Below are positions 16,588 to 27,688 of a stretch of 36,407 nt of DNA, piece after piece. Position 1 is the first letter of the stretch, and every line of letters starts with the position of its first letter. Source of the DNA: Acidobacteriota bacterium (GTDB lineage Bacteria > Acidobacteriota > Thermoanaerobaculia > Multivoradales > Multivoraceae); the NCBI GenBank assembly GCA_026708285.1, contig JAPOVF010000334.1:1-36407 (forward strand), read 5' to 3'. The notes under the pieces were generated by a model that saw nothing but the letters and a program-made list of their open reading frames with translations, made no database searches and was not told the DNA's origin. The position numbers and the translations under genes were made by a program.

Positions 16588-17136
16588 CTACGACTCGCAG
16601 GCATCGGGAAACGCGGAGGAGTCCGTGAGTGCCGGGTGCCCCTTTGCGAGAACATTCGCCTGATAGTCCTCATCCGACTCTCCGGGCATCTGAGCCCGCC
16701 TGCTATGCGGCGCGAAGGTGTAGGTCTTCGCGTTGACCTGCGTGTCCGGCAGGGTCGTATCCCGAACGACCAGTTCCATGCCGAGGTCGCTGGCCGAGGC
16801 CGCGTAGACCCAGTGATGACCGTTGAAGGTGCAGCCGTCCAGTACCTTCAGCAGCACCTCCCAATTGTTGTAGCTGAAGAAGTAGAACAGGCCGGAATCG
16901 CTGGTCCGGGGTCTCGCAACCTTGGCCTCGCCTGCCCTGCCATCGGGCGTCATCCACTCCAGCGTCGCTTCGTACCGCCCATCCTGCAGACACATCACCG
17001 TGTCGCTTTCGACACAACCGCCGCTCTGCGAACTGCTCGAGGCCTCGAGATCCGACGCCGGCACGTTCGCCTCGCCCGCCAGCACCGGACCCGCCAGCAA
17101 CAGGAACGAGATGATCGGAACCGTCACACCCAACAT
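16588..17136 (-). CDS. Small secreted protein of an unnamed family (DSGLFYFF type)
   Basis: A 182-residue exported protein with signal peptide MLGVTVPIISFLLLAGPVLAG. The mature part carries a compact domain: GGCVESDTVMCLQDGRYEATLEWMT, then TSDSGLFYFFSYNNWEVLLKVLDGCTFNGHHWVYAASASDLGMELVVRDT and a C-terminal HPALTDSSAFPDACES. Four cysteines in the mature domain (two close together near the N-terminus, one central, one near the end) suggest two disulfides. I recognise the pattern as a repeated extracellular beta-sandwich-like module of environmental bacteria but know no function. ATG 17136 is preferred because the signal peptide follows it directly; TTG 17163 lies in frame upstream. It is divergent from the carboxylesterase and convergent with the luciferase-like gene. 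Confidence 0.8.
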   Translation of the reverse strand: MLGVTVPIISFLLLAGPVLAGEANVPASDLEASSSSQSGGCVESDTVMCLQDGRYEATLEWMTPDGRAGEAKVARPRTSDSGLFYFFSYNNWEVLLKVLDGCTFNGHHWVYAASASDLGMELVVRDTTLPDTQVNAKTYTFAPHSRRAQMPGESDEDYQANVLAKGHPALTDSSAFPDACES

Positions 17137-17169
17137 CCTAGTGGCTGTCCGTTCCCGTGACAATTCGCC

Positions 17170-20625: not shown

Positions 20626-21297
20626 CTAGCCGGTGGCGGCGACCGTCGTCTGCCAGAGGTGTTCGCCCCAGGACAGCTTGAGCGTTCCGGGAGTGTCGCC
20701 TTCGGGCGGCTCGATCTCGATCGTCAGGCGCGGCTTCCCGCCCTCGACGATCGAGTGCTCAAGCCGGATCTCGCCCAGGTCCTTCGCCGGATCGTGCATC
20801 GTGCCCCAGACGTCGGGCTCGTGGTTCACGATCAGCGTCCACTGGCCGTCGTCGTCCAGGCGAAGCCACAGGCTGTACAGTCCCGCGAAGCCGGGTGAGA
20901 CGTTGCCCGCCGGCACCTCGAGGTCGCCGACCACGATGTCAGCCTCCGTGCGCAGCTTGATCGCGGCCGCGGTCTGAAACTCGAACAGACCCTGTTCGTG
21001 TTCCTGCAACGCCTCCCAGTCCACGCCGAGGAGCGGCAGCCTGCCGGCGTTCACCTCGACCATGCCGCCGCCGACCTCGGCCCTGTCGATTGAACGCGTC
21101 GCGTTGACCAGCAGCGCGAAAGCGTTGGTCAGGCCCGAGGCGTCGAGCTTGCGACCCTCTCCCTCCTTCGAGGGTTTCTCGATGACTTTCTCGGTCTCGG
21201 CGAACTGACCCGCCGCAGGCGCCCCAAACGCCGCTGCCGAGAGCAGCAGGACGGCGGCGACCGAAGGCAGCCGCCACCACCCGCGCAAACCGGTCAT
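20626..21297 (-). CDS. DUF2911-like secreted protein
   Basis: A 223-residue exported protein (hydrophobic segment VAAVLLLSAAAFGAPAAGQ). The C-terminal half carries the DUF2911 pattern: EADIVVGDLEVPAGNVSPGFAGLYSLWLRLDDDGQWTLIVNHEPDVWGTMHDPAKDLGEIRLEHSI, then IEIEPPEGDTPGTLKLSWGEHLWQTTV. DUF2911 has no established biochemical role. The N-terminal half (GLTNAFALLVNATRSIDRAEVGGGMVEVNAGRLPLLGVDWEAL) is unlike the rest and may be a separate region. ATG 21297 lies ten bases after the stop of the cytochrome c/PHM-like gene, so the two are one operon and probably act in the same extracytoplasmic compartment. Confidence 0.78.
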   Translation of the reverse strand: MTGLRGWWRLPSVAAVLLLSAAAFGAPAAGQFAETEKVIEKPSKEGEGRKLDASGLTNAFALLVNATRSIDRAEVGGGMVEVNAGRLPLLGVDWEALQEHEQGLFEFQTAAAIKLRTEADIVVGDLEVPAGNVSPGFAGLYSLWLRLDDDGQWTLIVNHEPDVWGTMHDPAKDLGEIRLEHSIVEGGKPRLTIEIEPPEGDTPGTLKLSWGEHLWQTTVAATG

Positions 21298-21307
21298 TCC
21301 CGCCTGC

Positions 21308-22639
21308 CTACTCCCCGCCGCCGGTGCTCTGAATCGAGGCGACTCCGAGCCGCAGCGCGATCGGATCGACCGGCTCGACGGGCGCCCAGGCGACGAAGCC
21401 GAGCATCATCTCGTCGGTGGTGGCCGTACCGTTCACCACGTTATCCGCCGGGTCGAAGCCGCGCTCCTCGCCGCGCTCGGGCGTGTTCTCAAACCACATC
21501 GAGACCTCGACCCGGGTGCCGGCAGGGATCGTCTTCGGCTTCTTGTACTGGTACGTCGTCTGCCATTCCTGGTCGTAGTTCGGCACGTCGAGAAGAACCT
21601 CGGTCGTGCCGTCGGGGTAGAAGGCGTCGTAGCGCACCGCGACCGACCGCAGGTGGGCGTGCGGCCACAGAGCCAGGATGTCCGTCTCGACCGGGAAGAC
21701 GCGCGCCGCACCGACCTTCCAGCGCTCGTGGCCGGGCGGAATCTCGAAGGTCAGATTGCCGATCGAATCGAACTTGACCTCGCGCAGCTCGCTCTCCGGA
21801 GCGTCGGCGAACACGAAGCCGATCTCGGACCGGTCATGGAAGCCGCTGCCCTCGCCGGCCTCCTTGTTGTAGTGCATCGAGAACTCGATCGTCGAACCCG
21901 GCTCGAGCTTCATCGCGTAGCCGGGTTCCATCAGGTGGCTCTCGGCGCCGAGCGCGATGCAGCCAATCGAGCTGTCGCTGAACTTGCCGAGCGCGGTGGC
22001 GCCGCCGGGCGGCCGAACGCTCGCGCACATGTGGTGAACGTCGCTGCCGCCGACCTTGAACTCGACGCCGCGCACCCAGACCGTCTCCGGCAGCATCTCT
22101 TCGGTGAGCTCGGTCTCGAAGTTGATGTTGATGTCGGCGATGTCGTCGGCCACCCAATAGTCCTCCGGCATCTGAACGACGAGGTCGGGACGCCCGAGCG
22201 ACCAGCCGCCGGAGCCCTCCTCGACGAACTTCTTCGGCGCCGGCGCCTCGGCCGCGTCGCCGGCGGGCGCGCCGCCGCGGACCCAGCCCAGAACCGTCTC
22301 GATCTCGTCGTCCGACATGACCCGCTCATGGTGGAACTGCCCGCGGGTCGCCTCGGTCGCGAACCAGGGCGGCATCGAGCGGTTCTCGACCGCCCGCGCG
22401 ATGGACCGCGCCCAGGGACGCGTCTGCTGGTACGTCATCAGCGGCATGGGCGCGATCATGCCGCCGATGTTCTCGCCCTCGCCGTCGGGCCGGTGACAGG
22501 TCTGGCAGTTTTCCTGCAGCACCGGAAGAACGTCGCCGTAGAAGGTGGGCGTGTCCGCGTCGGCCGCCAGACCAAGGCCGGGAACGGCAACGGCAGCGAC
22601 GAGCATGAGCAGGATGGGGCGAGAGGTCTGGGTCTTCAT
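21308..22639 (-). CDS. Cytochrome c domain fused to a PHM-like type II copper monooxygenase fold
   Basis: A 443-residue exported protein with signal peptide ending near LGLAAD. A short cytochrome c-like domain (about 30-125) has Cys45-x-x-Cys48-His49 and RSMPPW with a possible axial Met89. The remainder resembles the two-domain copper type II, ascorbate-dependent monooxygenase (peptidylglycine hydroxylase) fold. Possible CuH ligands are His202-His203 (SDVHHM) and His256 (SMHYN). Possible CuM ligands are His327 and His329 (LWPHAHLRS) and Met411 or Met412 (TTDEMMLGF). The spacings are close to those of mammalian PHM, so the copper sites look intact. The fused cytochrome could deliver electrons in place of ascorbate, which is inference. 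ATG 22639 follows GGGAG by about ten bases. The DUF2911 gene is downstream in the same operon. Confidence 0.82.
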   Translation of the reverse strand: MKTQTSRPILLMLVAAVAVPGLGLAADADTPTFYGDVLPVLQENCQTCHRPDGEGENIGGMIAPMPLMTYQQTRPWARSIARAVENRSMPPWFATEATRGQFHHERVMSDDEIETVLGWVRGGAPAGDAAEAPAPKKFVEEGSGGWSLGRPDLVVQMPEDYWVADDIADININFETELTEEMLPETVWVRGVEFKVGGSDVHHMCASVRPPGGATALGKFSDSSIGCIALGAESHLMEPGYAMKLEPGSTIEFSMHYNKEAGEGSGFHDRSEIGFVFADAPESELREVKFDSIGNLTFEIPPGHERWKVGAARVFPVETDILALWPHAHLRSVAVRYDAFYPDGTTEVLLDVPNYDQEWQTTYQYKKPKTIPAGTRVEVSMWFENTPERGEERGFDPADNVVNGTATTDEMMLGFVAWAPVEPVDPIALRLGVASIQSTGGGE

Positions 22640-22808: not shown

Positions 22809-24629
22809 ATGCGGAAGGTGTTCGCCAACTCGGCCAGAACTCCGGGAACCACGATCTTCCTGACTCTCTGCGTCGCCGCCGCTGCGGCTGCCGGCGAGGC
22901 CGACCGAAGGGCCCTGTTCGGCGACCTGCACGTCCACACCCGCTACTCCTTCGACGCCTTCATCTTCGGCACCCGTAGCACGCCCGACGACGCCTACGAG
23001 TTCGCCAGGGGCAAGCCGATCGAGCACCCCGCCGGGTTCGACCTCCAGCTCGACCGGCCGCTCGATTTTCTCGCGGTAACCGACCACGCGTACTACCTCG
23101 GGATGCTGGAAGCGATGTCCCAGCCCGACCACCCGCTGTCGAAGCTCGACCGGGCCGCGGAGTTCACCCAGGCACGGACGATCGCCCAGAAGCGGAACGC
23201 CTTCCGCAGCGCCGCCTACGTCGGGGAACATAGCGACGCGGACGTCATCCGTTCGGCCTGGAAGCGGACGGTCGAGGCCGCCGAGCGCCACAACGACCCG
23301 GGCGTCTTCACCACCTTCGCCGCCTACGAGTACTCCGCGAGGCGCGAAGGCGGCAACCTGCACCGCAACGTGATCTTCCGCGGCGACGCGGTGCCGGACT
23401 ACCCTTACGGCCGCCTCGACTCGATCAACCCCGAGGACCTCTGGGCGTGGATGGATGACCTGCGATCGCAAGGGATCGAGGCCCTGGCCATCCCCCACAA
23501 CTCGAACGGCTCCGACGGCCACATGTTCCAGCTCGTGAACTTCGCCGGCGAGCCGATCGACGCGGCGTACGCCGAGACCAGGATGCGAAACGAACCCCTG
23601 GTCGAGGTCACCCAGGTCAAGGGCACCTCCGACACCCATCCCTTCCTTTCGCCCAACGACGAATGGGCCGATTTCGAGATCATGCCCTACCGCATCGGCC
23701 AGTGGAACAAGTCGAGGCCGCGCGGTTCCTACGTCCGCAATGCCTACCAGCGCGGCCTCAAGCTCCAGGCCGAAAGCGGCGTGAATCCCTACCGTTTCGG
23801 CCTGGTGGGCGCCAGCGACACCCACAACGGCGGCGCCTCGCTCGACGAATCGAACTTCGTCGCCAAGGTCGCCGTCCTGGACGCGACGGCCGAGCTGCGT
23901 GGCTCCGTGCCGATCGTGGCGGAGGAGGGCGTCAGGGCCTACAACGACACCTACTACAAGACCTGGAGCGCCTCCGGCCTGGCCGGCGTCTGGGCCGAGG
24001 AGAACACCCGCGACTCGATCTACGACGCCTTCCGCCGCAAGGAGACCTTCGCGACGAGCGGCCCCCGCATCGTCGTCCGTTTCTTTGCCGGCGTCTACCC
24101 GGACGACCTGGCCGAGCGCGACGACGCGGTCGACGTGGCCTATGCCCAGGGCGTGCCGATGGGCGGCGAGCTGCCGGCCGGCTCGGACGGCGCCGCGGCT
24201 CCCCGCTTCCTCGTCTGGGCGCTCCAGGACCCGCTCGGCACGCCGCTTCAACGGGTTCAGGTGATCAAGGGCTGGAGCGACGACGGACACGCGATGGAAC
24301 AGGTGTTCGACGTCGCCTGCTCGGACGGCCTGACTCCCGATCCCGAAACCCATCGCTGCCCCGACAACGGCGCCGAAGTGAATCTAAGCGACTGCAGCCT
24401 CACGCCCGACAGGGGGGCGTCGGAGCTCGTCACGCTCTGGCGGGATCCGACCTTCGAAGCCGGGCAGCACGCCTTCTACTACCTCCGGGCGCTGGAGAAC
24501 CCCACCTGCCGTTGGTCGACCTGGGACGCCGTCAAGGCCGGAGTCGATCCGAGGCCGGGTCTCCAGGCGACGATCCAGGAACGCGCCTGGTCGTCACCGA
24601 TCTGGGTCGGCGGCCCGCCGACCGAGTGA
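22809..24629 (+). CDS. DUF3604 protein (PHP-type metal hydrolase fold), exported
   Basis: A 606-residue secreted protein with N-terminal signal (TIFLTLCVAAAAAAGEA). DUF3604 begins LFGDLHVHTRYSFDAFIFGTRSTPDDAYEFARG, in which GDLHVHT supplies the first metal-binding histidines of a PHP-like (polymerase and histidinol phosphatase) site. Further candidates are LAVTDHAYYLG, AYEYS, ALAIPHNSNGSDGHMF and GLVGASDTHNGG. A C-terminal domain with several cysteines (VACSDGLTPDPETHRCPDN, LSDCSL, ENPTCRW) follows and is probably disulfide-bonded. The family is widespread in marine and soil bacteria but its substrate is unsettled; a phosphoesterase is plausible. ATG 22809 has CGGAGG about ten bases upstream. 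It is divergent from the copper protein and followed by a porin, with a candidate promoter in between. Confidence 0.9.
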   Translation: MRKVFANSARTPGTTIFLTLCVAAAAAAGEADRRALFGDLHVHTRYSFDAFIFGTRSTPDDAYEFARGKPIEHPAGFDLQLDRPLDFLAVTDHAYYLGMLEAMSQPDHPLSKLDRAAEFTQARTIAQKRNAFRSAAYVGEHSDADVIRSAWKRTVEAAERHNDPGVFTTFAAYEYSARREGGNLHRNVIFRGDAVPDYPYGRLDSINPEDLWAWMDDLRSQGIEALAIPHNSNGSDGHMFQLVNFAGEPIDAAYAETRMRNEPLVEVTQVKGTSDTHPFLSPNDEWADFEIMPYRIGQWNKSRPRGSYVRNAYQRGLKLQAESGVNPYRFGLVGASDTHNGGASLDESNFVAKVAVLDATAELRGSVPIVAEEGVRAYNDTYYKTWSASGLAGVWAEENTRDSIYDAFRRKETFATSGPRIVVRFFAGVYPDDLAERDDAVDVAYAQGVPMGGELPAGSDGAAAPRFLVWALQDPLGTPLQRVQVIKGWSDDGHAMEQVFDVACSDGLTPDPETHRCPDNGAEVNLSDCSLTPDRGASELVTLWRDPTFEAGQHAFYYLRALENPTCRWSTWDAVKAGVDPRPGLQATIQERAWSSPIWVGGPPTE

Positions 24630-25981: not shown

Positions 25982-26375
25982 CGTCGACCGAAGCCTCGGC
26001 TCCTTCCGGCGGAGCCTCCCAGTCCTCCGCGTCGAGCAGGATCACCGGCGGCGACCGCTCGTAGAGCTCGCGGGCCACGGCGGCGCCCAGCGCCAGAATG
26101 CCGTCGAGCTCGCGCAGCACGACGGCGGCCGGCGCCGTTCCCAAACGGACGCCCTCCAGCAGCACCGAGCTCGAACTGCTCGACCCACGCCCGTACGGCA
26201 TGACCAGAACGCGACCGGCGACACTCTCGGCGCAACGCGGATGGCGCCGGTCGATGATCGTCCCGGTGACCGGATCGACACCGCCCCAGAACGAAAGCGG
26301 CTCCTCGAGCCGGAGCACCCGCCCGGCGCCGGTCCCGGCCACCAAGACCCGCCCTTCAAGCTCCACGCCGCTCAC
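25953..26375 (-). CDS. Aconitase X small (swivel domain) subunit
   Basis: A 140-residue protein corresponding to the aconitase X swivel domain (formerly DUF126), which closes over the active site of the large subunit. Key features are GVELEGRVLVAGTGAGRVLRLEEPLSFWGGVDPVTGTIID, the Ser-rich GRGSSSSSSVLLEG loop that carries the catalytic Ser in this superfamily, and TAPAAVVLRELDGILALGAAVARELY. The start is GTG 26375, whose last bases form the TGA stop of the large-subunit gene (overlap GTGA), so the two are translationally coupled and should form one heteromeric enzyme. The frame extends upstream to 26429 inside the large-subunit gene without family similarity. It overlaps the porin tail by 29 bases. 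Confidence 0.9.
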   Translation of the reverse strand: MSGVELEGRVLVAGTGAGRVLRLEEPLSFWGGVDPVTGTIIDRRHPRCAESVAGRVLVMPYGRGSSSSSSVLLEGVRLGTAPAAVVLRELDGILALGAAVARELYERSPPVILLDAEDWEAPPEGAEASVDVSGRLRIAG

Positions 26376-27688
26376 GGCCACAACTCCGGGTCGCGCCAGA
26401 GCCGGCCGGCCTGGGCTGAACGAACGCACTCGGCCAGGCTGCCAAAGACGACATCGAAGCCGACGTTGCCGGGCGCGTAGTGGGCGAACTTGCCAGAGTT
26501 CGTCATCAGCACGCCCCCGGCCGGCGTGCGCAGGATCGGCGCCACGACGACGCAGGTGTCGACGACCACGCGGACACCGAAGGCGCGCAGCCGCTCCAGA
26601 GCCCCTTCCCGTTCCAGGAAGTCGAGCGAAAGCCGGTTGGTGCAGACGACGAACTCGACTCCAGCCGAGGGCGGATGACGCTCGACGAGCGGCAGCAGCT
26701 CAGCGAACTCTCGCGGAGAGAAGTGAGGGCTGCCCAGGGCCACGACATCGATCGCCAGGTCTCCGCCGACGCCGGGACTCGAAGCCGCAGCCGCGGGGAC
26801 CGTCGACAGACTGCACAGCCCGGCGTGCAGATCATCCACCGTGATCTCGATCCACTCCTCGGCTTCGCGACCGCCGAGCGCCGCATCCAGAGTCGGTGCC
26901 TCCGGCGTGATGCCGACCGCGTGAAAGAGCGCCACCGCGCCCGACGAGGCCGCAGCCGCGCCCAGCGCCTTCAGGCCGTCCTCGTCCGCTTCCTCCAGGC
27001 CGAGCAGCACGGGCACCCGATTGCCGCAGCGTTCGCCCACCAGGTAGCCGATCGCCGGCAGCAGCCAGGCCGCGGACCGGAGAGCCCGCGGCAACGACCG
27101 CAGATCGAAGACGATCTGGCCGCGCCGGTTCTCCTCCAGGTGCAATCCCACCGCCGGCGCCCGCCCGGTGAGCGCCGCGCAGATGTCGATGAAGTCGCCG
27201 TAGCGGTGGGTGCGCGCACCGAGCACCGAGTTCGCGAACACGATCGCGTTGCTCTCCGCCCAGGCGACCTGCTGCCCGAACGCCGGTCGCGGCGTCGTCT
27301 GGTAGGGGGCGCAGGTCCAGATGGTGCGGCAGCCCATTTCGTCGTAGCACTCCATCAATCGCAACGCCTTGGCCCGGCGCTCGGCCGTTCCCGCGAACTC
27401 GTCAGGGTGCAGCAGATCGAGACCGCCCACGTTCAACGTCGTCGGCACGCACACCCGGGCGCCGCCCGCCACCAGCAACTCCGCGAAGTCGACTCCGGAA
27501 TCGCCGTGGTAGAGGCAACCGTCGATGTGGGCGCCCTCGATATCCAGGAGACGTTCGGCGCCGTAGACCCCCGCCATCGTGACCAGGATGCGCATGGCGA
27601 CCGCCGTTGCTGCACCATGGTCGCCCGCAAGCATCGCACGGTCGCGGACCGTCAGCGCGACGGTTTCGGGCGGCGCTCCGGCGGGCAT
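26372..27688 (-). CDS. Aconitase X large (catalytic) subunit
   Basis: A 438-residue member of the aconitase X family (formerly DUF521), iron-sulfur hydro-lyases that include archaeal phosphomevalonate dehydratase and bacterial cis-3-hydroxy-L-proline dehydratase. Conserved segments: LTVRDRAMLAGDHGAATAVAMRILV, GAHIDGCLYHGDSGVDFAELL (Glu/Asp/His cluster near 53-70), TCAPYQTTPRPAFGQQVAWAESNAIVFANSVLGARTHRYGDFIDI with Cys126, ALGSPHFSPREF, Cys379 in VDTCVVVAP, and LMTNSGKFAHYAPGNVG. Cys126, Cys349 and Cys379 are the candidate cluster ligands. The substrate is undetermined; no proline-catabolism or mevalonate gene is nearby. ATG 27688 follows a TACACT hexamer by eight bases, without a Shine-Dalgarno sequence. 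Confidence 0.92.
   Translation of the reverse strand: MPAGAPPETVALTVRDRAMLAGDHGAATAVAMRILVTMAGVYGAERLLDIEGAHIDGCLYHGDSGVDFAELLVAGGARVCVPTTLNVGGLDLLHPDEFAGTAERRAKALRLMECYDEMGCRTIWTCAPYQTTPRPAFGQQVAWAESNAIVFANSVLGARTHRYGDFIDICAALTGRAPAVGLHLEENRRGQIVFDLRSLPRALRSAAWLLPAIGYLVGERCGNRVPVLLGLEEADEDGLKALGAAAASSGAVALFHAVGITPEAPTLDAALGGREAEEWIEITVDDLHAGLCSLSTVPAAAASSPGVGGDLAIDVVALGSPHFSPREFAELLPLVERHPPSAGVEFVVCTNRLSLDFLEREGALERLRAFGVRVVVDTCVVVAPILRTPAGGVLMTNSGKFAHYAPGNVGFDVVFGSLAECVRSAQAGRLWRDPELWP

Follow-up and report, generated by a model that had tools for sequence, protein, structure and literature searches.

A c-type cytochrome fused to a PHM/DBH-like copper core in Acidobacteriota and other bacteria

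The window (the whole analysed stretch of 36,407 nucleotides, contig JAPOVF010000334.1 of an Acidobacteriota bacterium) carries on its minus strand a gene for a 443-residue protein, in which an N-terminal cytochrome c-like domain precedes a copper core related to PHM and DBH. The gene for a small secreted DUF2911 protein lies directly downstream. The features of this gene pair are as follows, with CuH and CuM denoting the two copper sites.

20626–21297, minus strand: DUF2911 secreted partner, 223 aa (PF11138, 36.1 bits against a cut-off of 27; conserved neighbour)
21308–22639, minus strand: cytochrome c–PHM-like, predicted dicopper monooxygenase, 443 aa (open reading frame with ATG start; PHM/DBH homology and fold)
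22562–22639, minus strand: probable Sec signal peptide, approximately residues 1–26 (hydrophobic stretch LLMLVAAVAVPGLGLA, then ADA; read from the sequence)
22493–22507, minus strand: CQTCH, residues 45–49, heme c attachment and proximal His49 (169 of 169 rows of the large alignment)
22373–22375, minus strand: Met89 in an MPPW motif, likely distal heme ligand (169 of 169 rows; between predicted helices 70–85 and 110–121)
22031–22036, minus strand: His202-His203, CuH ligands (invariant in the 41-row alignment; align with HH of PHM)
21872–21874, minus strand: His256, CuH ligand (invariant in the 41-row alignment; aligns with the HY motif of PHM)
21653–21661, minus strand: His327-Ala-His329 (HAH), CuM ligands (invariant in the 41-row alignment; align with HTH of PHM)
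21407–21409, minus strand: Met411 in a TTDEM motif, CuM ligand (invariant in the 41-row alignment; aligns with SSDEM of PHM)

A signal peptide would be consistent with a protein that acquires its heme c and its copper in the periplasm. In the AlphaFold model of the protein (pLDDT 85.3, pTM 0.83), residues 1–22 of this region have a pLDDT below 50. The N-terminal domain is a class-I-like cytochrome c, a small helical domain (predicted helices 33–44, 70–85, and 110–121) that combines a CxxCH motif with the likely distal ligand Met89. A reading made from the sequence only had described a cytochrome c joined to a PHM-like core with an apparently complete ligand set, and CQTCH at residues 45–49, HH at 202–203, His256, and HAH at 327–329 were all found. 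Both halves of the protein score below the Pfam cut-offs, Cu2_monoox_C (PF03712) with 14.1 bits against a gathering cut-off of 23 and Cytochrom_C with 21.1 bits, just under 21.3, so that routine annotation would miss the protein. In a set of 41 relatives, PF03712 matches 14 members at E ≤0.01, and PF01082 (Cu2_monooxygen) matches one.

Among the sequence searches, the relation to PHM and DBH was recovered by a profile only. A phmmer search of the PDB with the single window protein found neither enzyme, and its sole match was a glucose dehydrogenase subunit (cytochrome part, E 0.35). When all PDB sequences were searched with a profile built from the 41 relatives, each of which comes from a bacterial record, PHM was matched at E ∼8e-10 and DBH at E 4e-7; the remaining matches up to E 5 were three weak matches to heme proteins (E 0.011–2). 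In the alignments of the profile with PHM, all six copper ligands are in register (HH, HY, HxH, and (T/S)DEM). The structure prediction that had been proposed as a check returned the PHM/DBH fold: the model superposes on DBH (4zel_A) with Z 22.4 and a Foldseek E of 5e-13, and on PHM (6ala_A) with Z 21.8 and a Foldseek E of 2e-11. Across 26 PHM and DBH entries, Z ranges from 16.8 to 22.4 (16.8–21.8 for PHM chains) over ∼250 residues, and the next fold, PNGase F, follows at ∼9. The fold, the sequence profile, and the full set of six ligands together identify the protein as homologous to the copper core of PHM and DBH.

With PHM (PDB codes 1phm, 1opm, and 6ala), the window protein shares the fold, the HH...H and HxH...M ligands, and the surroundings of the methionine ligand (TTDEM and SSDEM, respectively), whereas sequence identity is ∼14% and the N-terminal cytochrome c is a feature of the window protein. 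PHM carries R240, a peptide-binding arginine two residues before HTH that contacts the peptide carboxylate. The aligned position is Trp325 in the window protein and Leu in the profile consensus. With Trp325 in place of R240, peptidylglycine is an unlikely substrate.

The likeness to DBH (PDB code 4zel) includes the fold, the same six-ligand pattern, and an additional domain that precedes the copper core. The copper ligands of DBH are H262, H263, and H333 together with H412, H414, and M487, as given in the accessible part of PMC4846438. The corresponding spacings in DBH, derived from these ligand numbers, are 70, 79, and 73 residues, against 53 (H203–H256), 71 (H256–H327), and 82 (H329–M411) in the window protein. 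The sequence-only reading had called the spacings close to those of the PHM copper sites, and set against DBH we also judge them close. The extra domains differ. That of DBH is a DOMON domain in which, according to the accessible part of PMC4846438, the typical heme ligands are absent in the crystal structure, whereas that of the window protein is an unrelated c-type cytochrome. After the copper core of the window protein, no dimerisation domain was noticed.

Conservation of the ligands was followed through three alignments. When 84,980 species genomes were scanned, 54 loci emerged from Acidobacteriota, Hydrogenedentota, Rhodothermota, and Gammaproteobacteria, and one further, very short match on a deltaproteobacterial contig. 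In a first alignment of 76 rows, histidine occupies the positions of H202, H203, H256, H327, and H329 in 72, 71, 71, 71, and 70 rows, and methionine that of M411 in 71; the non-matching rows are gaps or a few diverged copies. Residues 411 and 412 of the 443-residue protein form a Met-Met pair, and either had been considered as the CuM ligand. The first of the two stands, being invariant and aligned with SSDEM of PHM, and M412 falls away, as its position holds methionine in only 45 of the 76 rows. The 41-row alignment covers relatives with 28–93% identity to the query, two ligand-less copies being left out, and C45, C48, H49, M89, H202, H203, H256, H327, H329, and M411 are all invariant in it. 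For the large alignment, four sets of loci from other genomes were added, giving 169 full-length rows from 168 genes (the window protein is present twice). C45, C48, H49, and M89 are kept in all 169 rows and all six copper ligands in 163, or 162 of the 168 genes, in counts that come from searches seeded with the cytochrome c–PHM family and include many near-identical orthologues. Thus, the copper ligands are conserved among the homologues, and the motifs read from the sequence are no chance occurrences. The same 169 rows contain cysteine at both C205 and C227 in 32 cases, at neither in 137, and never at one singly; from this perfect co-variation, we predict a disulfide bond that some members of the family possess and the others lack.

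To avoid circularity, we searched 199 Acidobacteriota genomes with PF03712 alone. At E ≤0.001, 27 of these genomes and none of 14 control genomes gave a match, and 25 of the 199 have a copper domain above the PF03712 cut-off. A CxxCH motif lies directly upstream of the copper domain in all 30 loci fetched in this way, in frame in 28 and in disrupted frames in two (L237 and L222). L222 had been considered as a copper domain without heme and was rejected as a disrupted copy, because its CxxCH sits just upstream in another frame. Judged from these sequences, the fusion of cytochrome c and copper core is apparently obligate. The heme motif at every copper domain examined and the joint invariance of heme and copper ligands suggest that the heme donates electrons to CuH.

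Not every copy retains its copper ligands. In three gammaproteobacterial copies (L142:1480–3270, minus strand; L160:5639–7357, plus strand; L167:1268–3028, minus strand), each located in a stretch with two complete copies, the sequence R-M-N replaces the HxH of CuM, and H202, H203, H256, M411, and the heme are kept. Another lineage, represented by L075 in the window's genome and by L038:1646–4435, L199:145–2955, and L204:1001–2635 in Hydrogenedentota, has lost the copper ligands and kept CxxCH. These variants could be pseudo-enzymes or electron relays. Since the heme persists in paralogues devoid of copper ligands, it may serve a function that does not involve copper.

The family is patchy across genomes and often present in many copies. 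The genome of the window contains 25 matches that merge to 20 genes (three genes are split in two pieces, and two short matches to the cytochrome part were not counted), and 19 of the 20 have all copper ligands. With split matches included, 19 matches occur in the near-complete genome of a relative with three contigs (G108), 16 in that of a single-contig relative (G184), and 15 in that of a relative from the same taxonomic family (G152). Outside Acidobacteriota, six genomes (two Hydrogenedentota, one Rhodothermota, and three Gammaproteobacteria) gave 12–28 raw matches each. The family was found in 41 of the 199 Acidobacteriota genomes, a survey in which copy counts are lower bounds, since about nine candidates were scored per genome. 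It is rare in the class of one gammaproteobacterial carrier, where it occurs in 2 of 143 genomes including the carrier itself.

The DUF2911 gene starts 10 nt after the stop codon of the cytochrome c–PHM gene on the same strand; the sequence-only reading had called the two operonic. On a tree of the family, 34 of the 82 rows have a co-oriented DUF2911 gene no more than 500 nt downstream, and this trait requires 3 changes compared with 26.4 for shuffled labels. One clade shows adjacency in 30 of its 31 rows, with the odd one out (L021) located near a contig end, and a Hydrogenedentota/Rhodothermota clade shows it in all four of its rows; in some other rows, absence is less certain because of short flanks. 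The partner protein belongs to a branch of DUF2911 found beside the cytochrome c–PHM gene. Six other DUF2911 matches in the window's genome have other arrangements, one of them (C52) divergent from a tandem pair of family copies. Co-occurrence at the genome level is weak, with DUF2911 in 29 of 41 genomes with the family versus 84 of 158 without it among the 199 genomes, and was therefore dropped as evidence, with adjacency used in its place. The suggested partnership of the two families is real but confined to a subclade, and the frequency of DUF2911 in genomes lacking the family speaks against a general one.

Nine genes of the window were checked for a conserved neighbourhood, and the loci of close orthologues retain all or most of them side by side. 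At loci of lower identity (L017–L028, L038, L041, L042, L044, L096, and L097), the sole window genes are the cytochrome c–PHM gene and, in its subclade, DUF2911. At one locus of G184 (L047:6001–6258), all that is left of the cytochrome c–PHM gene is a match covering the final 86 codons; DUF2911 was not found at this locus and the neighbours remain, which amounts to one joint loss. Comparison of a DUF2911 model (pLDDT 76.8) with the PDB gave no match worth naming (best Foldseek E 0.05, best VIA Z 4.2). A role of DUF2911 as a metal site is unsupported, as its alignment contains no invariant His, Cys, or Met. DUF2911 is rarely named in the literature searched.

Next to the gene pair lie a divergent DUF3604 gene (22809–24629, plus strand, 744 bits) and an aconitase X gene (26372–27688, minus strand). 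This neighbourhood is kept only in close orthologues, and DUF3604 is missing from some of them. Elsewhere in the window, positions 16588–17163 (minus strand) encode a 191-residue protein with a probable signal peptide, as read from its sequence, and without a Pfam match at E ≤1. A gene for a PQQ alcohol dehydrogenase–cytochrome c protein lies directly downstream of three other copies of the family in three genomes and two phyla: one in the window's genome (C394) and one locus each in two gammaproteobacterial genomes. The three dehydrogenase genes are at L120:3328–5541, L132 from 2690, and L151 from 11776. A monooxygenase followed by an alcohol dehydrogenase fits an alcohol product. Further neighbours of other copies include TonB-dependent receptors, a thioredoxin–ankyrin protein, and a multicopper oxidase; apart from the alcohol dehydrogenase, the neighbours examined do not suggest a common pathway. 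One Hydrogenedentota contig (L200:1–20000) holds, within 20 kb, five copies (one without copper ligands), DUF2911, COX1, and a cytochrome c with two matched stretches.

The homology, both copper ligand sets, the heme fusion, and the many copies are results of computation, whereas the activity of the protein, the donor role of its heme, its substrate, and the role of DUF2911 are inferred. We consider it fairly probable that the protein is a periplasmic, PHM/DBH-type, non-coupled dicopper monooxygenase in which the fused heme c, not ascorbate, feeds CuH. The heme, ligated by His49 and Met89, would be reduced by the respiratory chain or by a different c-type donor in the periplasm and pass the electrons on to CuH (His202, His203, and His256). 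CuM (His327, His329, and Met411) would bind O2 and hydroxylate a C–H bond of the bound substrate. Since the heme would supply the electrons, ascorbate would not be needed. The copies of the family may have diverged for different substrates. In the DUF2911 subclade, the small secreted protein from the same operon would act as a dedicated accessory, perhaps in substrate delivery or assembly.

Electrons might also flow in the opposite direction, from substrate to copper, heme, and a terminal oxidase, in a dehydrogenase-like enzyme or oxidase with the heme as acceptor. Quinoprotein dehydrogenases typically have a cytochrome c fused to them, and such an enzyme is encoded directly downstream of the L120 paralogue, and the Hydrogenedentota cluster has both its two-stretch cytochrome c and COX1 nearby. 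This direction is nonetheless unlikely, because the protein shares its fold and its six copper ligands with PHM and DBH, enzymes that activate O2 and must be supplied with electrons, as stated in the accessible part of PMC4846438. The retention of heme in paralogues without copper ligands would agree with a PHM-like monooxygenase that draws on a small-molecule reductant and uses its cytochrome c for docking, peroxide handling, or sensing; PHM and DBH themselves work with ascorbate, according to the accessible parts of PMC6123673 and PMC4846438. Such an arrangement is likewise unlikely in our view, given that invariance extends to the heme ligands, Met89 among them, just as it does to the copper ligands, and that a heme motif directly precedes every copper domain examined.

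Both mononuclear sites are kept with the exact ligand set of PHM down to 28% identity, and it is hard to see why a storage protein should retain precisely these ligands. We therefore regard it as very improbable that the protein merely binds copper and heme for copper storage, sensing, or delivery, even though copper ligands are lost in some copies and the family is not known to act on any substrate. That the protein is a hydrolase of PNGase F-like fold and has no copper chemistry seems hardly credible: the fold is shared more distantly with PNGase F (Z ∼9), but the Z-scores of 17–22 for PHM and DBH are far higher, the profile matches PHM and DBH and no PNGase at E ≤5, and the copper ligands are invariant in the 41-row alignment. 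The heme-fed dicopper monooxygenase is the reading we prefer.

PHM and DBH have been studied as animal enzymes, which produce amidated peptides and noradrenaline and need ascorbate (vitamin C). How electrons arrive at the two widely separated coppers of these enzymes, and how they pass between them, is a matter of long-standing debate. Some database annotation of bacterial architectures such as the one described here probably exists. The literature searched, from which most subscription journals and bioRxiv were outside the scope, contained no description of a cytochrome c–PHM fusion, and the strings "bacteri" and "prokaryot" do not occur in the accessible part of PMC6529398.

Tentatively, at least four phyla may hold a large and mostly overlooked class of PHM/DBH-type enzymes that is driven by heme c and independent of ascorbate, with a dozen or more copies per genome oxidising many periplasmic compounds. 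This class might include paralogues with a division of labour, in which CuM or both copper sites are dropped and the heme is kept, as well as a subclade with an obligate DUF2911 partner. DUF2911 would gain its first concrete partner. A bacterial form with a built-in donor could be expressed, and heme spectroscopy would make the electron route directly testable. If the copies differ in substrate, they would represent a large reservoir of unassigned bacterial C–H oxidation chemistry. The family may thus represent a self-powered variant within an enzyme class whose known members depend on vitamin C.
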